From positions 69,011 to 133,010 of the forward strand of contig CACZYC010000002.1 of assembly GCA_902785365.1 (NCBI GenBank): a stretch of 64,000 bases of DNA, given 5' to 3'. Under the pieces are notes generated by a model. The model was not told the DNA's origin. It searched no databases and saw only the letters and a list, made by a program, of their open reading frames with translations. Position numbers and translations under genes: made by a program. The stretch is from an uncultured Ruminococcus sp. Its GTDB lineage: Bacteria; Bacillota; Clostridia; Oscillospirales; Acutalibacteraceae. The stretch's first letter is position 1. The number at the start of each line of letters is the position of its first letter. This document shows, one piece after another, positions 23,177-34,275 of the stretch.

Positions 23177-25930
23177 TTAATTATAATCTTTTATTACCGC
23201 GCCTTCAGCAACTAAGCTCCAGTTATCCTTTTTCCAGATATCATCGTGAACAGAATACCATCTTGCAGAATTGAATTGTTTGAAATAAGCTCTGTTCTTT
23301 GTGATTGAGAAGTCCTTGGAAGCTATAATATACTGGTCGTGAGCGGTTTTTTCCTTGTCGTTAATAACCTTCTTGGTGAACGGATTAACAGGATTATTGA
23401 CGGTATCTTTTGTCGCGATTGTAGCGACATCGGCGTTTGCCATAAACTCGTTAGAGGTTTTGAAGCCGTCCTTGCTGTTGAAATCCTTAACCATAAGAAG
23501 CGGGAAATAGAATTCCGCGTCACCGTAACGTTTATCAATGTTCTTGTCGTTTACAGTATCGTCAAGGAAGAAGTTTACTATCTGATCTAATCCGAAGCCG
23601 TGGTCGGAAACAAGGATAATCTTAGTATTGTCGTATACTCCCTCTTTCTTAAGATAATCGAACCATTCTGTCAGACGTGTGTACGCAGCGATATTGGTCT
23701 GATATGTTCCGATTTGCTTCTTTGTTTCAAGCTGAAGTGTAATACCGTTAAGAGTTTTGTTCTGAGGTTCGGGAGTAGTGTTTACACTGTCGTCAACAAC
23801 TAGATAATCACTATCCTTAAAGAGCTTGGAGTTATGAGTAGCCTCACTAGCCATCATAAGGAAACTGCCCTTCTTGTTGTTGCTGATTTTTGTCATTTCA
23901 GACATATTCTTCAGAACTCCGTAAGCGTCGTCAAAGGCGTCTTTTTCTGCCGCTTCGGTTTTAGTCACGTGATGATAGTTACCCTCATCATAAATGGTTG
24001 ACTGGGCAAACAAAGGCGTCATTTTTGTTATACCGAACCAGAAGAAGTTACGGTTACGGTTGCTGATAAGCTGTTCAACGGATTCCAAATCAGTGAAATA
24101 ACCGTTGGCAATATACTTGTCAATATTGGGATAATCTTTATATATAGACAGATCGGGAATGTGCTTGTAGCCCGCATAAGGAGGATCAATAACAGTTGAG
24201 TCATAACCCTCATTATCATACATTACAGGCAAAACTTTAAGAGCCTCGTTCTGTTTCTCGACTAGTGTTTGATCTTTCTTTCTGTTTATCTCAACGGGAG
24301 TGTATTCATATCCACCGAACAGCGACGGAGTTCCAAAGTTCGTATGACCGCCGTAAGATATTACGTTGGAATAATAAGTGAATCCGGCAAAATCATCCTG
24401 GAGCTTGGGGTTATCCTTCATAATATACGGGATATACTCGCCCATAGCTCTGTCAAGCATAAGAACGACAACGTTTTTGCCTTCTTTACTCAGTTTAATT
24501 GTCGGCTGACTTGATGATGTTGAGAGTGAATCCTGGTTAAGTTCCGAAACGGAATTGAAAATACCAACAGTATTAATTACACCCATACACAGCATTGTCA
24601 AAGACGCAACCATTACAATCGGGAATACGATTTTGGGTTTGAATTTAGTCAGTACAATCAAACCTGCCGCTACAACACAGACCGCGAGGAGATTGAGCAG
24701 AATAAAGCCAATACTCCACTTGGGATCGTTATCATAGACAAGCTCAGTTGAAAGAACACCGAGATTGTTGCTGAACAACAAATAGTCGACTACACCTACA
24801 CCGCAGGCGGCAAGAATAATTCTTTCAAACACAACCTTGGCTTTGGGCGCGAACAGCCAGTAGAATACGCCGAACCAAAGAATAAAAAGTCCCGCGGAAA
24901 CAAGGAATGTGTTAACAATATACCATACAGGATGCACAAAATGTCCGACGATAACAAACTCCTGAGGAGACGCCGTGATAACGGACGACGGTATCAAAAT
25001 ACCTGTGAGCATCGACAAAAACAACGCGCCGCCTATGAAAAGCTTTGAGTTTGGTTTGGCTTTAACCTCGGGGAACGTGAACTTTGTCCTGGCTTTTATC
25101 TGAGTATATATGAAAGGAATACAAAGAACCAAGCCGATAACTCCGAGAAGAATCATCCACTTCACAGGTCCGCCGCTGAAGCCTCTGATAACGCTGAAGC
25201 CAAACATAAAGACGCCTATACATAAGAGCAGTATATTGAGCACCTTTTTGGGATTTTTAATTTTATAGAAAATTGTCTTAATAAGTGAGAATACGTTATT
25301 GAGTGTCCAATAGAATACAAGACCTGAAGGCGAATTGTAGAGGAAAATGAGGAAGAATGCCGCCATACCATAAAGCTGGATTTTAGTCTTGAGCGGAAAA
25401 CCTTTTGTGAAAATAATTGTGGAAATAACATTAACGGCAGTCATAATAATAGGAAGTACGTTAATTGTCAACCCGCCTATTGTCAGCAAACCATCGGGAA
25501 CGCCGAGATCGGCAATAGGTCCGAATGACGCGCCGTGAAGCTGCGGTAGACTTGAAAGGAAACGGTAAGCAACAATGAAGAAAGGAATCGCCAAAAACAG
25601 AGAAATCGCGCTTCTGAGAACGTACAGCGGGCTATAGTTGTTCTGACGATAATATGTCTGAATCATCATTGTACGCTCGTCGCCTTTGAATGTTTTTTTG
25701 ATGTGAGCGACGCCGTCGTGAAGCTTAGCCTCGATATTGCGTTCCTCCTCCTGAATCGCGTCTGAACGGCGATACAGGGGCAACACCAGAAGGTTAAACG
25801 CTAAACTTAACAGGATAATTGACAATCCTGTATTTTCCGAAGTAAATCTGTACGCATAGCTGAATATAACTTCAAATATCAGCTGAATAGGCATAAGAAA
25901 GAACGAATAAATCATTGATAATATTGACAT
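23177..25930 (-). CDS. YidC/Oxa1-like domain fused to a sulfatase-type phosphotransferase
   Basis: 917 residues. Residues 1-225 resemble the YidC/Oxa1 core: NTGLSIILLSLAFNLLVLPL, the charged linker with KGDERTMMIQTYYRQ, and the closing YNSPSGLVFYWTLNNVFSL. At the site of the conserved groove Arg there is Asn46. About 230-460 holds more membrane segments. From about 485 an alkaline-phosphatase-superfamily domain of LTA-synthase/sulfatase type begins: VVVLMLDR (Asp493), GGHTNFGTPSLFGG (Thr530 or Thr534 as possible nucleophile), ATHN, VSDHGFG (Asp776, His777). It overlaps the TagF-like gene by one base. Predicted to transfer a phospho- or phosphono-group outside the membrane. The exact reaction is unknown. 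Confidence 0.78.
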   Translation of the reverse strand: MSILSMIYSFFLMPIQLIFEVIFSYAYRFTSENTGLSIILLSLAFNLLVLPLYRRSDAIQEEERNIEAKLHDGVAHIKKTFKGDERTMMIQTYYRQNNYSPLYVLRSAISLFLAIPFFIVAYRFLSSLPQLHGASFGPIADLGVPDGLLTIGGLTINVLPIIMTAVNVISTIIFTKGFPLKTKIQLYGMAAFFLIFLYNSPSGLVFYWTLNNVFSLIKTIFYKIKNPKKVLNILLLCIGVFMFGFSVIRGFSGGPVKWMILLGVIGLVLCIPFIYTQIKARTKFTFPEVKAKPNSKLFIGGALFLSMLTGILIPSSVITASPQEFVIVGHFVHPVWYIVNTFLVSAGLFILWFGVFYWLFAPKAKVVFERIILAACGVGVVDYLLFSNNLGVLSTELVYDNDPKWSIGFILLNLLAVCVVAAGLIVLTKFKPKIVFPIVMVASLTMLCMGVINTVGIFNSVSELNQDSLSTSSSQPTIKLSKEGKNVVVLMLDRAMGEYIPYIMKDNPKLQDDFAGFTYYSNVISYGGHTNFGTPSLFGGYEYTPVEINRKKDQTLVEKQNEALKVLPVMYDNEGYDSTVIDPPYAGYKHIPDLSIYKDYPNIDKYIANGYFTDLESVEQLISNRNRNFFWFGITKMTPLFAQSTIYDEGNYHHVTKTEAAEKDAFDDAYGVLKNMSEMTKISNNKKGSFLMMASEATHNSKLFKDSDYLVVDDSVNTTPEPQNKTLNGITLQLETKKQIGTYQTNIAAYTRLTEWFDYLKKEGVYDNTKIILVSDHGFGLDQIVNFFLDDTVNDKNIDKRYGDAEFYFPLLMVKDFNSKDGFKTSNEFMANADVATIATKDTVNNPVNPFTKKVINDKEKTAHDQYIIASKDFSITKNRAYFKQFNSARWYSVHDDIWKKDNWSLVAEGAVIKDYN

Positions 25931-27279
25931 TATTTATTCCCCTTTCTTTTTGTTTTTTTATTTTTTGGATTCTTACTTTTTTCTTTAGTTTTCTTATCTT
26001 TTGATTTCTTCTTTTTAGAATCCTTTTTTGATTCTTTTTCGTTTTCTTTTAATTCTTTATCTTTTAACTCGTTATATTTATTTATAAAGTAATCCGCTAC
26101 GACTTCAGCGCCGTGTCTGTAATTTACCCAGATTTCTTCTCTGACAGCGCGACGATTCTTGGAGAACTTGGGATTATTGATGCAGTCATCAAGGATTTCG
26201 GGCAGCTGCTCAAGATTCTCCTCTTTGATTTCCGCGCCTAAACGAGCCATAGCGCCGAATGTCCATGGTTCTTTCTCGAGCCACCAAGCGTCATAGGGAG
26301 ATGAGTCAAAGTTTGTGTTGGCGAACAACACAGGTCTGTCATACACGAGCGAGAACTCAAAGAGAACACCCGAGAAATCGGAGATAAGTACATCCGATTT
26401 CTTAAGCACCTGATAGTTATCGCTGTCGTAGTTCCACTCGAGTCTGTCGGAATTCGGGAATTCTTCCATTAACTTATCGAGCATATCTTTCTCGGAAGCG
26501 ACAGACTGCGGATGAGGACGAATAATAATGTGATATTTCGACTTGAGAAGCTCGGTAATAATCTTTCCGCCGAAACGGGAAAGAATCGCGCTCTCGCCCC
26601 ATGACGGAGCGAGAAGAATGTTCTTGACCTCATTGGGCTGAACATTGTCTTTCTCAAACTTGGTAACCATATCATCCATATAAGGAATACCCGCGAGCAC
26701 GAGCTCCTTTTGGGGAAGGTTGCGGAGCTTTTCGAGCTCACGTACCTGTTTGATCTGGAATTTACCGTTCAAAAGTATGGAATCATAGTAATCTATACCA
26801 AACATACGGTACATTGTAATATCCTTGGGAGCGTGCATAATATGAACATAGTAGTCAACTTTTTTGGACCTTTTCCACTGGTAAACGTCAAGTCCTGGGG
26901 TGGTGGCAAAAAGGATTTTAGCCTCAAGAAAGTTAAGCTTGGCAAACGCCTTGTTGCCCGCGCCGATAAACTCAGCATGAACGTGTTCATAAGGATTATC
27001 CAGAGCGGCGTCATCCTCGGACGCGGTCATATATACTACATCAAACTCACGCTTATCGAGTTCACGGCAAATCGGTTCAAATGTCTGCCAGTAACGCTTG
27101 TCATCAGAAAAAATGACAAACGGGATTTTACCGTCGCCAAGGTTTTTTGACTTACCGCCGGACATCAAAAACTTTATCTTTGTAATTGCGTTTCTGAACA
27201 GGAAACCCGCCGCGCCGATTACACCAATCAGAATAGCGAAAAGCATACTACCCGTACCCGGGTCAATATATAGTCTCAT
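25930..27279 (-). CDS. CDP-glycerol glycerophosphotransferase-like (TagB/TagF) protein
   Basis: 449 residues. An N-terminal membrane anchor with the motif YIDPGTGSML is followed by a Glyphos_transf domain: FATTPGLD, HIMHAPKD, LLAPSWGESA, IIIRPHPQSV and SDFSGVLFEFSLVYDRPV, which carry the His/Arg residues that bind CDP-alcohol donors. The last 50 residues or so are almost only Lys, Glu, Ser and Asn (KKDSKKKKSKDKK...). In this operon it probably transfers a CDP- or CMP-activated unit to a lipid-linked polymer. Whether the donor is CDP-glycerol or a CMP-phosphonate cannot be told from sequence. Confidence 0.83.
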   Translation of the reverse strand: MRLYIDPGTGSMLFAILIGVIGAAGFLFRNAITKIKFLMSGGKSKNLGDGKIPFVIFSDDKRYWQTFEPICRELDKREFDVVYMTASEDDAALDNPYEHVHAEFIGAGNKAFAKLNFLEAKILFATTPGLDVYQWKRSKKVDYYVHIMHAPKDITMYRMFGIDYYDSILLNGKFQIKQVRELEKLRNLPQKELVLAGIPYMDDMVTKFEKDNVQPNEVKNILLAPSWGESAILSRFGGKIITELLKSKYHIIIRPHPQSVASEKDMLDKLMEEFPNSDRLEWNYDSDNYQVLKKSDVLISDFSGVLFEFSLVYDRPVLFANTNFDSSPYDAWWLEKEPWTFGAMARLGAEIKEENLEQLPEILDDCINNPKFSKNRRAVREEIWVNYRHGAEVVADYFINKYNELKDKELKENEKESKKDSKKKKSKDKKTKEKSKNPKNKKTKRKGNK

Positions 27280-27326: not shown

Positions 27327-28445
27327 TCAAGACTTGATATATTTCATAAATCCGATTTTATTATCCAAAGCGGTGGTTGTAGGTCTGCCGAGGTCGGCGC
27401 GCGCGCCGATAGAACATTTAACTTCAATAAGACTAAGCTCGTTGCGTTCTTTTGCTGCCTTAAGTTCTCTGTCAAGAGCATCAAATGTATCAACGCTGAC
27501 AGCGTTGGGGTAGCCGCAAGCCTTGGCAATTGTTACGACATCAGCCTTTGCGGCGACTGTGGGCATACCGCCGACAGTCTCGTGAGCTCCGTTATTTATT
27601 ACTATATGGACTAAGTTTTCGGGAGCGTTTGCGCCCATAACCGCCATTGAACCCATATGCATAAGCATAGCGCCGTCACCGTCAACGCACCACACCTTCT
27701 TGTCAGGCTTATTGAGTGCAACTCCCAGCGCGATGGATGAGCTGTGTCCCATTGAGCCTACTGTAAGGAAATCATATTGATGCCCCTGTGAGTTAGCCTC
27801 GCGGATTTCAAAAAGCTCACGGCTCGCCTTACCTGTTGTGGATACTATCAAATCATCGCCTGTAGCTGAGGCAATATGTCTGATGATATCCTCACGGTTC
27901 ATATCGCAGTCGTTTTTATATTCAACCTTTTGGTCATATTCCAAAGCGCCCTTACGGATTACAAAAGCTACCTGCTTACCTTGACTTAATACCTTTTTGA
28001 ACTCGTCCATTTTGGCGGTGAGTTCATCAGGTGTAGTGTCCTTGCCGATAACAAAGGAAGCAATATCCATATCGTCAAGCAGCTTGACTGTCACTTCGCC
28101 CTGATAGATGTGCTGGGGTTCATCGTGAACGCCCGGCTCACCGCGCCAGCCGATAACGAAAATCATCGGGATAGCGTAGACCTTATCGTTAAGAAGTGAC
28201 GCTACGGGGTTGATTATATTACCCTCGCCGCTGTTCTGCATATACACTACGGGAGTTTTGCCTGTGGCAAGATGATAACCCGCAGCTAAACCGACGCAGT
28301 TACCCTCGTTTGCGGCGATAATGTGATGTTTCTTGTCAATACCGTAAGTATTCATAAGATAGTCGCACAGGGATTTTAGCTGTGAATCGGGAACACCTGT
28401 GTAAAAATCGGCGCCTATTATTTCCAAAAGTTTTTCAATCTTCAT
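27327..28445 (-). CDS. ppd: Phosphonopyruvate decarboxylase
   Basis: 372 residues, normal for the family. ThDP-dependent: catalytic Glu47 (AANEGNC), GVHDEPQH, and the ThDP/Mg motif GDGAMLMHMG (256-265) ending in NN (284-285). The DFYTGVPDSQLKSLCDYL opening is characteristic. It decarboxylates phosphonopyruvate to phosphonoacetaldehyde, pulling the unfavourable PEP mutase reaction forward. It is two bases from the alcohol dehydrogenase gene and in the same operon as PEP mutase. Confidence 0.92.
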   Translation of the reverse strand: MKIEKLLEIIGADFYTGVPDSQLKSLCDYLMNTYGIDKKHHIIAANEGNCVGLAAGYHLATGKTPVVYMQNSGEGNIINPVASLLNDKVYAIPMIFVIGWRGEPGVHDEPQHIYQGEVTVKLLDDMDIASFVIGKDTTPDELTAKMDEFKKVLSQGKQVAFVIRKGALEYDQKVEYKNDCDMNREDIIRHIASATGDDLIVSTTGKASRELFEIREANSQGHQYDFLTVGSMGHSSSIALGVALNKPDKKVWCVDGDGAMLMHMGSMAVMGANAPENLVHIVINNGAHETVGGMPTVAAKADVVTIAKACGYPNAVSVDTFDALDRELKAAKERNELSLIEVKCSIGARADLGRPTTTALDNKIGFMKYIKS

Positions 28446-28447
28446 AC

Positions 28448-29560
28448 TTATTTCCTCTTACTAAAAATCTGATGATACAGCATATCAATTGTATCTTCAC
28501 TCAATTTGACAGGGTTATTCTTCAATCGTGTGGGATTAACCGAGGTTTTTAGAACCTCATAATCCTCGTTACTGCAATCGGGGATAGAAAATTCAAGCTT
28601 TGAAACAATATCGTTGAACTTCTCGCACAAATCAGATGTGTCTGAGCAATTCATGGTTTTTGCGATATCCTCGAAAACGGTTTTGAGGTAAGCTTCTCCC
28701 CTGCTGTCGATGCAGTTTTCGGTATGTTCAATCATATATGGCATCAAAACCGAATCACACAAAGCCGCAGCGTGGCCGTGAGCTATTCCGTAGAGACTGG
28801 TCAGCTTATAGCACATAGCGTGTCCCGCGGTTGTCTGGGTTATGTTAATAGCCTTACCCGCGATATTAGCGGCTTTGAGCATCGCTTTGTTAGCTTTATC
28901 CTCATTATTGAGGTACGCGTCCATATTATCGAGAATCATAGTAATTGCCGTTTTGGAGAGCTCCTTACTTTCATCGGTCGAGTTAACCGACCAGAAAGAC
29001 TCTATTGAGTGGCAAAAGGCGTCCATCATGGTCGCCTTGCGCTGATACATCGGTAATGTTTTAAGCACGGACGAATCAAACACAACAATCGAGGGAATAC
29101 AGCTTAAATCAGCAACCGACTGCTTAACTCCGTTGTAGTAGATAACGGCGTATCTTGTGGCTTCGCTGCCTGTACCCGCAGTTGTGGGAACAGCGATTAA
29201 TGGAATATCATTAGGAACGATTTTTTGATTGATATACTCATCGCTGTCGTCCATATTTGAGTATAGCTTTACACACTTTGCCAAATCCATAGCGCTGCCG
29301 CCGCCTACGGCGACAATCAGCTCGCGACCGCTCTTTCTGAAGAATTGAACAGCTTCTTTAACAGAGGTGTAGTCGGGATTAGGCGCGAAATTTGAAAACT
29401 TAATTATGTTAGCGCCCGATTCAATTAAGGAATCTATGTGCTTTCCTATTTTAAGGAATCCGTATGAGCTGTCGCAGACGAGAAAAACCTTTTTTCCGCC
29501 GCCGAACAGTTCATCAAATTCGCTGTAATTATCATTGATGATAATTTCTCTCTGGTTCAT
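28448..29560 (-). CDS. Iron-type alcohol dehydrogenase, probable phosphonoacetaldehyde reductase
   Basis: 370 residues. NAD(P) motif VAVGGGSAMDLAK, VPTTAGTGSEAT, and metal ligands Asp and His in MMDAFCHSIESF (four apart) and the two His of GHAMC and IAHGHAAA (14 apart), the iron-ADH arrangement. Lying between PEP mutase and Ppd, it is expected to reduce phosphonoacetaldehyde to 2-hydroxyethylphosphonate. No aminoethylphosphonate transaminase is present, which supports the alcohol branch. Substrate assignment is from context. Confidence 0.83.
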   Translation of the reverse strand: MNQREIIINDNYSEFDELFGGGKKVFLVCDSSYGFLKIGKHIDSLIESGANIIKFSNFAPNPDYTSVKEAVQFFRKSGRELIVAVGGGSAMDLAKCVKLYSNMDDSDEYINQKIVPNDIPLIAVPTTAGTGSEATRYAVIYYNGVKQSVADLSCIPSIVVFDSSVLKTLPMYQRKATMMDAFCHSIESFWSVNSTDESKELSKTAITMILDNMDAYLNNEDKANKAMLKAANIAGKAINITQTTAGHAMCYKLTSLYGIAHGHAAALCDSVLMPYMIEHTENCIDSRGEAYLKTVFEDIAKTMNCSDTSDLCEKFNDIVSKLEFSIPDCSNEDYEVLKTSVNPTRLKNNPVKLSEDTIDMLYHQIFSKRK

Positions 29561-29572
29561 ACAGGTACCTCA

Positions 29573-31582
29573 TCAAACATCTTCGGGAATAAGACTGATA
29601 ATCTCCTTGAAAGGCATACAAATATCGTCACATTCCTTGGCACGGTGATTTTTGAGAATGGTCTCCGCCGCGTTACGCATTGCGGGGAAGCCTGTCCTTG
29701 TAAGCTGGTTGGCGTAGATTACAATGTTGACTCCGCGCTCCTTGAACTCTTCCTCGGTAACGGTGTTGAATGAAGTGGGAACAACAACTATCGGAGTAGC
29801 GCTGTCCTTCTCTCTGAACTTAGCGACAAACTCAAATATTTCGTCGGGGTCTTTTCTGCGGCTATGAATCATAATCGCGTCAGCGCCCGCCTCTGCAAAA
29901 GCGAAAGCTCTCTCAAGAGCGTCGTCCATACCCTGCTCAAGAATAAGGCTCTCGATTCTGGCGCAAATCATAAAGTCCTTTGTACGCTGAGCTTTCTTGC
30001 CGGCTCTTATCTTTTCACAGAATTCGGGGATTGCAGCCTGTGTCTGCTGAACCTCGGTACCGAAAAGGCTGTTCTTCTTCAGCCCTGTTTTGTCCTCAAT
30101 AATTACCATAGAAACGCCCATTCTCTCGAGTGAACGTACTGTATAAACAAAATGCTCGGTGAGTCCGCCTGTGTCACCGTCGAAAATAATCGGCTTTGTT
30201 GTTACCTCACAGATATCGTCAATTGTTCTGAAACGGGATGTCATATCAACGAGCTCAATATCGGGTTTACCCTTTGCAGTGGAATCGCAAAGAGAGCTTA
30301 CCCACATAGCGTCAAATTGGCGCAGACCGCCGTTTTCCTCGACTGTGGTGTTCTCAACGATAAGTCCCGTAAGACCTGAGTGAGCCTCCATAGCGGAGAT
30401 TGTACCCTTCATAGCGAGTAGCTTCTTGAGTCTTGCTCTGCGCACATCGGGAGTAGCGAGCTCCGCGCGGGCTCTGTTTTCGAGGTCCTCGTATTTGTTA
30501 TCCTTGCCGTAAGGATACTCTACAAGCTTGCCGCCGTAAGAATCAAGTATGGTTATAACCTCGTCTCTTACAGGCTTCTGGAAGCCCATAAGCCAGTCGT
30601 CGCCATGGACAACATAGTCGGGTTTGAACTTTTCGAGGTTTTCTTTGTAGCTTAATGTAGTCTGCTCAACTACCTTGTATACGCCCGAGATATTTTCAAG
30701 CATAGACTTACGCTCGGAAAAAGGAACAAGCGGAAAACGCTTGAACGAAACAACAGCGTCATCAGAAAGAACGCCGATAATAAGCTTTCCGAGTTTTTCA
30801 GCCTTTTTTATAATTGAAAAGTGGCCGCTGTGCAGGATATCTGTGGAGAAGCACATATAAACCGTGCGGTTTTCAATCTCTTTGAGTCTTTTTGAGATAA
30901 CCTTCAAATCCTCGGGGTTATCAATCTCAGCGCAAAGCCTGTCCTCAAAATCAAAGGGAACTATATTGCATTTGTCGGAAACAGCGTTAAACGCGTTTTC
31001 CGCGTAGCAGCCTGTGTTGTCGCTTTCGCAAAAAGCTACAATGCTGTCAAGCCACACCTTCCAGTCCTCTTTGTTGAGTTTATAAAGAGGCTGAGCCGCC
31101 ATAGCGTTGTTGAAAAACTCAATGCCTACCTTTGTAATTTTGCCGTCTTCCACAACCGCTTTGAAATCTTTTTCGGGAAGGTCAAGTGTAGAGCTGACGG
31201 TCATACAGCTTTTTTCGGAATTGATAACTTCCTCAAAGACGGAGTTCTCGAAAACAAGATCGCCGTGCATCAGTATTACGTCGTCGTCGAGATACTCGCG
31301 CGCGCAATAAATAGAATAAATGTAGTTGGTCTTGTCATAAAGAGGATTGTTGACAAACTTATAGTTCAAAGGCAGATTAAGACTGCGGCAATAATCCTCG
31401 AGTACGTCGCTGTAATAGCCTGTTGTCATAACAACATCGGTAATACCCGCCTCGGCAATCAGCTTGAGCTGTCTGCTGAGTATAGTATCGGAATAAAGTA
31501 TCTCGGTCATACATTTGGGATGTTCCGAAGTAAGGACGCCCATACGGCTTCCGAGACCGGAATTTAAAACTAAAGCTTTCAT
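29573..31582 (-). CDS. Three-domain fusion: nucleotidyltransferase, cytidylyltransferase, PEP mutase
   Basis: 669 residues in one frame. 1-235: LicC/PntC-like nucleotidyltransferase (NSGLGSRMG, HPKCMTEI, LMHGDLVF). 239-365: TagD/ECT-like cytidylyltransferase with HSGH (251-254), VLSDDAVV, PFSERKSML and VVHGDDW. 380-669: phosphoenolpyruvate mutase with EDKTGLKKNS (496-505, the EDKxxxxxNS signature) and Mg site DGDTGG (468-473). PEP mutase makes the C-P bond; the other domains would activate a phosphonate, and perhaps a second phospho-alcohol, as CMP/CDP esters. First gene of the phosphonate set, 36 bases after the GMP synthetase subunit gene. Confidence 0.9.
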   Translation of the reverse strand: MKALVLNSGLGSRMGVLTSEHPKCMTEILYSDTILSRQLKLIAEAGITDVVMTTGYYSDVLEDYCRSLNLPLNYKFVNNPLYDKTNYIYSIYCAREYLDDDVILMHGDLVFENSVFEEVINSEKSCMTVSSTLDLPEKDFKAVVEDGKITKVGIEFFNNAMAAQPLYKLNKEDWKVWLDSIVAFCESDNTGCYAENAFNAVSDKCNIVPFDFEDRLCAEIDNPEDLKVISKRLKEIENRTVYMCFSTDILHSGHFSIIKKAEKLGKLIIGVLSDDAVVSFKRFPLVPFSERKSMLENISGVYKVVEQTTLSYKENLEKFKPDYVVHGDDWLMGFQKPVRDEVITILDSYGGKLVEYPYGKDNKYEDLENRARAELATPDVRRARLKKLLAMKGTISAMEAHSGLTGLIVENTTVEENGGLRQFDAMWVSSLCDSTAKGKPDIELVDMTSRFRTIDDICEVTTKPIIFDGDTGGLTEHFVYTVRSLERMGVSMVIIEDKTGLKKNSLFGTEVQQTQAAIPEFCEKIRAGKKAQRTKDFMICARIESLILEQGMDDALERAFAFAEAGADAIMIHSRRKDPDEIFEFVAKFREKDSATPIVVVPTSFNTVTEEEFKERGVNIVIYANQLTRTGFPAMRNAAETILKNHRAKECDDICMPFKEIISLIPEDV

Positions 31583-31618: not shown

Positions 31619-32602
31619 TTATTCCCACTCAATAGTAGCTGAAGGCTTGGGAGTGAGGTCGTAGAGAACGCGGTTTACGTTCAAAACTTCTGATGTAATA
31701 CGCTTTGTAATATGCTGAAGAAGCTCAAAGGGTACATTCTCGACAGTAGCTGTCATAGCGTCCTTTGTGTTGACCGCGCGGATAATTACAGGGTAGGCAA
31801 ATGTACGTTTGCCATCCTTTATACCGACGCCCTTAAAGTCGGGAACCGCTGTAAAATACTGCCAAACCTTACCCTCAAGACCATTCTTGGCGAACTCTTC
31901 GCGGAGGATAGCGTCACTCTCACGGACAGCTTCAAGTCTGTCGCGTGTGATAGCGCCTAAACAGCGTACGCCGAGACCGGGACCCGGGAAAGGCTGACGG
32001 AATACCATATTATCGGGAAGACCTAACGCCTTGCCTACTACTCTGACTTCATCCTTAAACAGGAGTTTCACAGGCTCTACAAGCTCAAACTGTAAATCCT
32101 CGGGAAGTCCGCCTACATTATGATGAGCCTTAACGCCGTCATCGGATTCAAGAATGTCGGGGTAGATTGTGCCCTGCGCAAGGAACTCAATACCGTCGAG
32201 CTTTCTGGCTTCTTCCTCAAACACACGAATAAACTCAGCGCCGATGATTTTTCTTTTCTTTTCAGGTTCCGCTACACCCGCTAACTTGTCAAGAAAACGG
32301 TCAACAGCGTCAACATATATGAGGTTGGCGTTCATCTGATTTTTGAACACTTCTACAACCTGCTCAGGCTCGCCTTTACGGAGAAGTCCGTGGTTGACGT
32401 GGACGCATACAAGCTGCTGTCCTACCGCTTTTATTAACAAGGCGGCAACAACCGAGCTGTCAACTCCGCCCGAAAGCGCGAGAAGCACCTTTTTGTCACC
32501 GATTTGTTCTCTTAATTCTTTTACCTGCTCGTCAATAAAAGCATTGGCAAGTTCAGGAGTTGTGATTCTTTCCATCGTTTCGGGTCTTACATTTCCTTGC
32601 AT
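31619..32602 (-). CDS. GMP synthetase ATP-pyrophosphatase subunit, stand-alone
   Basis: 327 residues covering only the synthetase half of GuaA: P-loop LALSGGVDSSVVAAL, VNHGLLRKGE, QGTIYPDILES, RQPFPGPGLGVR and the C-terminal dimerisation end TPKPSATIEWE. No glutaminase domain is present. It would make GMP from XMP with ammonia, or with a glutaminase supplied in trans. A complete guaA lies 131 bases upstream. AATGGAGGTAGAAT precedes the ATG, and it has its own promoter. It looks intact rather than decayed. Confidence 0.88.
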   Translation of the reverse strand: MQGNVRPETMERITTPELANAFIDEQVKELREQIGDKKVLLALSGGVDSSVVAALLIKAVGQQLVCVHVNHGLLRKGEPEQVVEVFKNQMNANLIYVDAVDRFLDKLAGVAEPEKKRKIIGAEFIRVFEEEARKLDGIEFLAQGTIYPDILESDDGVKAHHNVGGLPEDLQFELVEPVKLLFKDEVRVVGKALGLPDNMVFRQPFPGPGLGVRCLGAITRDRLEAVRESDAILREEFAKNGLEGKVWQYFTAVPDFKGVGIKDGKRTFAYPVIIRAVNTKDAMTATVENVPFELLQHITKRITSEVLNVNRVLYDLTPKPSATIEWE

Positions 32603-32733: not shown

Positions 32734-34275
32734 TCATTCCCACTCAACAGTACCCGGCGGTTTACTGGTAATATCATAAACTACACGGTTGACATTTGGG
32801 CACTCGTTTACAATTCGATTTGAAACACGAGCCAACACATCATAAGGAATACGGGCAAAGTCGGCCGTCATAAAGTCGTCAGTTGTAACGGCGCGGATAG
32901 CCACAAGGTTGTCATAGGTACGATGGTCGCCCATAACTCCGACAGTTCTGACATCGGGCAATACAACAAAATACTGGCTTATGCTTTTATCAAGCCCGCT
33001 TTTAGCGATTTCGTCGCGCAATACAGCGTCGGCTTCCTGGAGCACTTTAATTTTTTTCTCGGTGATTTCGCCGATTATACGAACGCCTAAACCGGGACCC
33101 GGGAAAGGCTGACGCCATACGAGTTCGCTCGGAATTCCGAGCAGCTCCCCTACCCTGCGCACTTCGTCTTTAAACAAATCCTTCAAAGGCTCGATAACGT
33201 CGTCAAACTTGATGTCGTCGGGCATTTTTACCTTGTTGTGGTGTGTTTTAATTTTATCGGCGTCACCCTTGCCGCTTTCGATACAGTCCGGATAAATTGT
33301 ACCCTGAGCAAAAAAACCGCCGTCCGATTCTTCGCGGATTTTGTTCCAAAATACGTTGTAAAATTCTGTGCCTATTATATTCCGTTTAGCTTCGGGGTCT
33401 GTGACGCCTTTGAGCTTTTTAATAAACTCTTTTCCGCAGTTTACGCGGATAAACTTCATATCAAAGAGCGAAGTGAAAGTGCTTTCGACAAAGTCGCCCT
33501 CATCCTTGCGCATAAGTCCCTGGTCAACGAAAACACAGGTGAGCTGATTACCGACAGCCTTACTGAGCAGAGCCGCCGCTACCGACGAATCCACTCCGCC
33601 CGAAAGCCCTAAAACGACCTTTTTATCGCCTATCTGCTCACGCAGAGAATTGACAGTGTTATTTATAAAACTCTCCATTTTCCAGTCGCCCGCGCAATTA
33701 CAGACGTTGAATATGAAGTTTTTTAACAATTTGTTGCCGTACTCAGAGTGAGTGACCTCAGGATGAAACTGAACAGCGTAGATATTCTCGCTGGCGTTTT
33801 CCATAGCGGCTATGGGACAGTTATCGCTGTGGGCGGTAATATCAAAACCATCGGGTGTATTAACGATTCTGTCCGTGTGGCTCATCCACACAACGCTGTC
33901 GGGAATATCCTTGAATAAAAGGCTGTCCTTTTTGTCAACTGTAATATCAATCTTGCCGTACTCGCGTGTATCGGAGGTTTCAACCTTACCGCCGCGCATC
34001 CAGCAAATAAGCTGACAGCCGTAGCAAATTCCGAGAACGGGTATTCCGAGATTGAGAATCTCGCTGTCATAATGCGGAGAGCTCATATCATAGACGGAAT
34101 TTGGTCCGCCCGTGAAGATAATACCCTTATAATTCTCGGCTTTAATCTCGTCAATCTGACATGTATATGGCTTAATTTCGGCATAGACGTTAAAGTCTCG
34201 TACACGTCTGGCAATTAGCTGATTGTACTGACCGCCGAAGTCAAGCACTAAGATTTTTTCTTTAACTTGGTTCAT
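32734..34275 (-). CDS. guaA: GMP synthase (glutamine-hydrolysing), full length
   Basis: 513 residues. Class I glutaminase domain with GICYGCQLI (nucleophile Cys) and QFHPEVTHSEYG, then the ATP-pyrophosphatase domain (LGLSGGVDSSVAAAL) and the C-terminal dimerisation domain ending TVEWE. Converts XMP to GMP. Last gene of purC-purF2-purB-purA-guaA. A short palindrome (32717-32735) overlaps the stop but lacks a T-run, so it is not a convincing terminator. Confidence 0.96.
   Translation of the reverse strand: MNQVKEKILVLDFGGQYNQLIARRVRDFNVYAEIKPYTCQIDEIKAENYKGIIFTGGPNSVYDMSSPHYDSEILNLGIPVLGICYGCQLICWMRGGKVETSDTREYGKIDITVDKKDSLLFKDIPDSVVWMSHTDRIVNTPDGFDITAHSDNCPIAAMENASENIYAVQFHPEVTHSEYGNKLLKNFIFNVCNCAGDWKMESFINNTVNSLREQIGDKKVVLGLSGGVDSSVAAALLSKAVGNQLTCVFVDQGLMRKDEGDFVESTFTSLFDMKFIRVNCGKEFIKKLKGVTDPEAKRNIIGTEFYNVFWNKIREESDGGFFAQGTIYPDCIESGKGDADKIKTHHNKVKMPDDIKFDDVIEPLKDLFKDEVRRVGELLGIPSELVWRQPFPGPGLGVRIIGEITEKKIKVLQEADAVLRDEIAKSGLDKSISQYFVVLPDVRTVGVMGDHRTYDNLVAIRAVTTDDFMTADFARIPYDVLARVSNRIVNECPNVNRVVYDITSKPPGTVEWE

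Follow-up and report, generated by a model that had tools for sequence, protein, structure and literature searches.

The last gene of a phosphonate operon in an uncultured Ruminococcus sp. encodes a 917-residue protein in which a YidC/Oxa1-fold membrane domain is joined to an LtaS/EptA-like domain of the alkaline phosphatase superfamily. From sequence comparison the protein looks like a member of a single-origin family of gut Clostridia, and the phosphonate operon together with a TagF-like partner are the features that point to its function. Because the context is that of transfer of CMP-activated headgroups, the fusion is best read as having a role with a lipid-linked substrate, and this suggests that an insertase fold has been reused for lipid handling.

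The fusion gene lies on the minus strand at positions 23177..25930 of the window (the whole 64,000-nucleotide stretch of DNA that was analysed), where a sequence-only reading had correctly placed it. That reading had proposed a YidC/Oxa1-like domain joined to an LTA-synthase/sulfatase domain in one gene, and matches to PF02096 and PF00884 as well as the predicted structures agree with it; the phosphonate operon and the TagF-like partner go beyond what it had mentioned. Residues 1-225 (25256..25930, minus strand) form the YidC/Oxa1-fold domain, which was assigned from PF02096, AlphaFold2 with Foldseek, and the alignment of the groove arginine. Residues 226-480 (24491..25255, minus strand), delimited by AlphaFold2 secondary structure and conservation, form a middle membrane region with approximately seven predicted TM helices and the lowest conservation in the protein, and residues 481-917 (23180..24490, minus strand) form the LtaS/EptA-like domain, assigned from PF00884, Foldseek and invariant residues. 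In the AlphaFold2 model of the complete protein, which is good (pLDDT 86.4, pTM 0.77), N-terminal helices occupy residues 3-29, a TM helix at 34-56 runs on as the cytoplasmic hairpin to 96, and TM helices follow at 103-126, 158-174, 180-197 and 202-222, which is the YidC order; these are followed by seven long helices (227-463) and the enzyme domain. Given the N-out/C-in topology assumed for the YidC part and the seven additional helices, the enzyme domain is predicted to lie outside the membrane, on the side where the domains of LtaS and EptA act.

The PF02096 (60KD_IMP/YidC) match covers residues 35-222 (E 5.8e-22, 78.8 bits, above the cut-off of 35), and the NCBI subfamily model TIGR03592 gave 80.2 bits, slightly under its cut-off of 84.3. 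Since a Foldseek search with the full-length model returned enzyme-domain matches with a low global TM, the N-terminal domain was folded separately. The resulting model of residues 1-231 (pLDDT 86.6) has the five-helix YidC fold with its cytoplasmic hairpin, and its confident Foldseek matches were to YidC/Oxa1 structures only: B. halodurans YidC (3wo6/3wo7; TM 0.69-0.75, rmsd 3.3 Å), E. coli YidC, and one chain, Oxa1L to judge by its name, in the membrane-associated human mitoribosome. The YidC fold claimed earlier for residues 1-225 is thus borne out by superposition of the structural model on YidC.

The second domain matches Sulfatase PF00884 at residues 485-836 (E 1.4e-9), and the best PDB matches of the full fusion model were MCR-1 at the top, sulfatases, LtaS and EptA. 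Asp493 (codon 24452-24454), Thr530 (24341-24343), His699 and the pair Asp776-His777 (23600-23605, all on the minus strand) are invariant in 110 of 110 family sequences. The threonine nucleophile and the metal ligands (D493, T530, D776, H777) are therefore intact; the Thr530 site, like that of Asn46 discussed below, was assigned by alignment and motif, and the correspondence to the LtaS site is one of motif and not of superposed coordinates. Of the residues named in the sequence-only reading, Asp493 and Thr530 are among the invariant ones; Thr534 is a position that holds Thr in 20 of 63 sequences and is too poorly conserved to be catalytic.

The operon in the window has the order pepM (triple fusion)-ADH-ppd-tagF-like-fusion, in which all genes share the minus strand and are separated by no more than about 50 bases. 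The pepM gene (29573..31582) encodes a triple fusion of a MobA-like NTP transferase, a cytidylyltransferase and a PEP mutase (PF12804, PF01467 and PF13714). The PEP mutase part scores above the cut-off of TIGR02320 (404 bits) and its translation contains EDKTGLKKNS, which conforms to the EDKxxxxxNS motif that marks true PEP mutases according to PMC6697681. The same paper describes activation of 2-hydroxyethylphosphonate (HEP) as CMP-HEP by the cytidylyltransferase domain of Fom1, and the cytidylyltransferase domain of the triple fusion belongs to the same family. Downstream are an iron-containing alcohol dehydrogenase (28448..29560; PF00465, with 141.7 bits to the phosphonate Fe-ADH model TIGR03405, below its cut-off) and a phosphonopyruvate decarboxylase, Ppd (27327..28445; TIGR03297 471 bits, over the cut-off). 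Both of the enzymes by which phosphonate biosynthesis is recognised, PEP mutase and phosphonopyruvate decarboxylase, are present. The dehydrogenase is likely a phosphonoacetaldehyde reductase that would yield 2-hydroxyethylphosphonate, its substrate being judged from context and the product from its standing in for a transaminase. The TagF-like transferase, of the CDP-alcohol transferase kind (25930..27279; PF04464, E 5.2e-14, 52.4 bits, cut-off 22.1) is adjacent to the fusion gene, the ATG of which shares one base with its 3' end. Directly upstream of the operon lies a pair of GuaA-like genes, a short one (31619-32602; GMP synthase C-terminal part, 327 aa) and a full-length guaA-like gene (32734-34275).

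Of 150 genomes sampled from the family, 7 contain a full-length homologue of the fusion, and of 291 sampled from the class, 9 do. In addition, 79 further loci were found in other, named genomes, which excludes an assembly artefact; most of these genomes belong to Clostridia of the rumen and gut (Lachnospiraceae, Oscillospiraceae), and records of Schwartzia and Solobacterium are also among them. Carriers that can be cultivated include Schwartzia succinivorans DSM 10502, [Clostridium] aminophilum DSM 10710 and Butyrivibrio sp. MB2005. In 73 of 86 loci the fusion has the TagF-like gene as its immediate neighbour. After it, the commonest neighbours are a choline kinase (LicA), a LicC-like nucleotidyltransferase, and EamA-type and BCCT choline transporters, and LicB homologues also occur beside the fusion; in the window's genome (G000) no PF01633 match for LicA choline kinase was found. 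In some loci the LicC-like protein has a MarR-type N-terminal domain or is fused to the kinase, and LicC-LicA fusions carrying a MarR-type winged helix at the N terminus (L025, 3589-5415, and similar) suggest a self-regulated choline activation enzyme. The gene set of the window (fusion, PepM triple, ADH, Ppd and TagF-like) recurs in another family (L138, genome G284), L139 carries a 2-aminoethylphosphonate version in which the AEP transaminase is over the cut-off, and G262 encodes the fusion, TagF-like and LicC-like proteins, 2-aminoethylphosphonate transaminase, PepM and Ppd. Near the YidC fusion at L143 (1093-3006), L102 (9250-11052), L087 (2870-4714) and L053 (6907-8736), a nucleotidyltransferase is joined to a CobD-like PLP enzyme, and this protein is a candidate phosphoamino-acid decarboxylase route to CDP-ethanolamine. 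Each of these neighbour sets would yield a small phospho- or phosphono-alcohol or -amine in CMP-activated form.

The association of these genes with the fusion exceeds that expected by chance. In 42 of 72 cases a headgroup gene is no more than two genes away from the core (5000 within-locus shuffles gave a mean of 25 and a maximum of 37), and about half of the loci (46 in one tally) have no headgroup gene nearby. In the family sample LicA or PepM is present in all seven fusion genomes (LicA in four, PepM in three, both in none) and in 20 of 143 others (Fisher 3e-6). In the class sample PepM is present in 7/9 fusion genomes versus 16/282 others (2.4e-7); the genus-level comparison (4/4 fusion genera versus 13/177, 5.5e-5) is safer, as shared ancestry inflates the genome-level figures. 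For LicA the class sample gave 5/9 versus 41/282 (p 0.006), with weak matches that probably include other kinases. The only fusion genome without LicA and PepM, G307, has a nucleotidyltransferase-CobD fusion beside the TagF-like gene.

The TagF-like protein has an N-terminal YIDPGTGS motif, and RPHP (His256) and SDxSG are conserved in 80 homologues. In three genomes from two families the YidC-type domain is joined to the TagF-like domain instead (L150, 1292-3196, in G349:C57; L189, 8051-10180, in G286; L188, 8444-10339, in G380). Two of these proteins are encoded beside a separate sulfatase gene and the third within an operon containing Ppd, NTP transferase, CTP transferase-PepM and Fe-ADH, which is the phosphonate set of the window. 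Because the covalent arrangement differs among genomes, there is good evidence from gene structure that the YidC, TagF-like and sulfatase modules act together.

Several loci encode two to seven tandem fusions with at most two TagF-like genes, and in a count per locus the fusions outnumber the TagF-like genes in 22, equal them in 60 and are fewer in none. One locus, L107, has seven fusion copies and a single TagF-like gene; among five of its copies that were compared, the YidC domains are 92-97% identical and the enzyme domains 58-75%. Between paralogues in general, identity is 85.5% in the YidC domain, 52% in the middle region and 64% in the enzyme domain. Four-fold degenerate sites agree at approximately 52% in the YidC domain and 44% in the enzyme domain. 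With the silent sites of the YidC domain this divergent, it is held constant by selection and not by recent copying, and gene conversion as the sole cause of the near-identical YidC domains is unlikely. This pattern would fit paralogues in which the YidC domain handles one common donor and the enzyme domains have differing acceptors.

We propose that the proteins of the operon act in the following way. The PEP mutase pathway makes a phosphonate, most likely HEP, which the cytidylyltransferase domain would activate as CMP-HEP; in relatives genes for CDP-choline (LicABC), for 2-aminoethylphosphonate or of a CDP-ethanolamine-like kind stand in the corresponding place. The cytosolic TagF-like enzyme may then put the CMP-activated headgroup on a membrane lipid. 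The YidC-derived domain, with its polar groove kept, could carry the lipid headgroup across the membrane in the manner of a scramblase or could present it, and the outer LtaS/EptA-like domain would take the headgroup onto Thr530 with a divalent metal and pass it to a surface acceptor, for example a teichoic acid or glycan. On this scheme tandem copies would draw on a common lipid donor and serve different acceptors. The lipid step is suggested by the mechanism of LtaS, in which a lipid headgroup is moved onto a threonine (PMC4192460), and by the scrambling of lipids by YidC/Oxa1 proteins in vitro (PMC10491306). In addition, phosphocholine is attached to pilin by PptA (PMC10434233), which shares its superfamily with the outer domain. 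We put at about even the chance that headgroup-lipid synthesis by the TagF-like enzyme, transfer or presentation by the YidC domain and hand-over by Thr530 constitute the last step of surface decoration. That the YidC/Oxa1 domain is a dedicated scramblase or headgroup conduit, bringing a CMP-derived phosphonate or phosphocholine lipid made by the TagF-like enzyme to the outer LtaS-like transferase, is proposed more tentatively. Several points weigh against this explanation. LicD occurs in 12 of 15 fusion genomes examined, so headgroup transfer could be its task and the fusion could have another. CDP-glycerol may be the substrate of TagF-like enzymes, roughly half of the loci lack a nearby headgroup gene, and the YidC domain retains general insertase features, with an Asn at the groove site that ordinary YidCs also have.

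TagF-like enzymes of known systems act on CDP-glycerol, and LtaS is among the best structural matches of the fusion, so both proteins could belong to a synthase of the lipoteichoic acid type. The TagF-like and LtaS-like proteins would then make polyglycerolphosphate, with the YidC domain flipping or holding phosphatidylglycerol and the phosphonate or choline genes modifying the polymer separately, for example through LicD, which most fusion genomes possess. One locus does have a glycerol-3-phosphate-cytidylyltransferase-like gene next to TagF. Such genes are not regular neighbours, however, whereas CDP-choline and CMP-phosphonate genes are, and a YidC-TagF fusion occurs inside a phosphonate operon. 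Two genomes, G032 and G126, have LicABC and the fusion and no LicD, and a synthase of this type is considered rather unlikely. Replacement of LicD by the fusion is possible in these two genomes; the frequency of LicD elsewhere rules it out as a general rule.

The YidC domain might instead still be an insertase or chaperone, for example for the N-terminal membrane segment of the TagF-like protein or for the fusion's own membrane domain. Its fold, cytoplasmic hairpin and groove are retained, and the groove residue does not speak for a change of function. Asn46 (codon 25793-25795, minus strand) aligns opposite the groove arginine of both E. coli YidC and the genome's own YidC, as had been stated beforehand, and this Asn is shared by 106 of 108 ungapped members of the family. 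The same genomes also encode other YidC-type proteins; in the 13 of these that were compared (12 stand-alone and one joined to a TagF-like domain) the position is Arg in seven, Asn in four and Lys in two, so that real YidCs tolerate Asn at this site and the missing arginine is not evidence of lost insertase function. The groove arginine is only weakly diagnostic of insertase membership, and Asn46 as proof of insertase loss is ruled out. The sequence-only reading had inferred that the YidC fold positions a lipid-linked substrate or the phosphotransferase and does not insert proteins; the lipid-linked role survives as the best reading from context, and the argument from Asn46 does not. Stand-alone YidCs with Asn at the site are found at L149, L152, L153 and L154, in four related Clostridia genomes, and in G126, G032 and G262 the Asn-bearing protein is the sole stand-alone YidC found. 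Against an insertase role, a separate YidC is present in each of the 15 fusion genomes examined; that of the window's genome is on another contig. In a tree, which includes one row on a long branch, the fusion YidC domains form one group apart from the YidC-type proteins of the same genomes (support 100/100), and it is from this grouping that the family looks single-origin. The fusion domains are also far more alike than those insertases and have invariant residues of their own, and a dedicated insertase for each enzyme copy, with up to seven copies per locus, would be odd. Retention of an insertase or chaperone function is therefore improbable.

The YidC domain might also be purely a structural anchor, holding the TagF-like enzyme against the phosphotransferase and having no role in transport. 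This would agree with the joining of YidC to either the sulfatase or the TagF-like domain, as predicted for a scaffold, and with the cytoplasmic hairpin being among the most conserved stretches, but it is very doubtful given the conserved polar residues within the membrane helices (Asn46, Thr164, Asn167, Asn211, Asn212 and Ser215), which suggest more than docking.

Each module of the fusion is known, and the combination, partner and context were not found described in the open-access literature searched, in line with the earlier statement that no characterised enzyme has this architecture. The fusion shares the fold, helix order, cytoplasmic hairpin and polar groove of YidC/Oxa1 insertases (B. 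halodurans YidC2, E. coli YidC), and differs from them in its phosphotransferase, its separate group in the tree, the nearly invariant Asn46 and further family-specific Asn and Thr residues. With LtaS and LtaP it has in common the extracellular domain of the alkaline phosphatase superfamily and the D/DH metal ligands, and its G-x-T site resembles the GKT site of LtaS (Thr307 in Listeria, PMC4192460); unlike them, it has a YidC domain, a longer membrane region, a TagF-like partner and a choline or phosphonate context in place of glycerol phosphate. EptA, MCR-1 (the top structural match) and PptA also transfer small phospho-headgroups outside the membrane, but they have no YidC part and their donors are ordinary phospholipids. 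PMC10434233 gives no evidence that PptA-type enzymes and Lic-1 coexist, whereas in relatives of the fusion Lic-1 genes occur together with another enzyme of the PptA superfamily. Of the LicABCD system, homologues of LicA, LicC and LicB are found beside the fusion in many relatives, with the TagF-like/fusion pair where LicD would be expected. The same PepM triple fusion as in the window is known from phosphonyl tailoring (PepM-PntC, Fom1-type fusions), and PMC6697681 counts 42 such triple fusions and names LicD-like phosphotransferases and glycosyltransferases as neighbours; its available sections contain no mention of a YidC-sulfatase/TagF-like pair.

Since the fusions pass the PF02096 cut-off, these results warn against annotating them as insertases. 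An insertase fold covalently tied, in two arrangements, to headgroup-transfer enzymes makes lipid movement in vivo directly testable, and a larger significance would depend on a demonstration that the YidC domain moves lipids. If the scramblase or conduit reading is true, the family would provide a physiological case of the lipid scrambling by insertases so far seen in vitro, as well as a LicD-independent route of surface decoration. The steps of phosphonyl tailoring after C-P bond formation are called enigmatic in PMC6697681, and for many Clostridia of the gut and rumen, which form a large group, the TagF-like/fusion pair is a concrete candidate for late phosphonyl tailoring.
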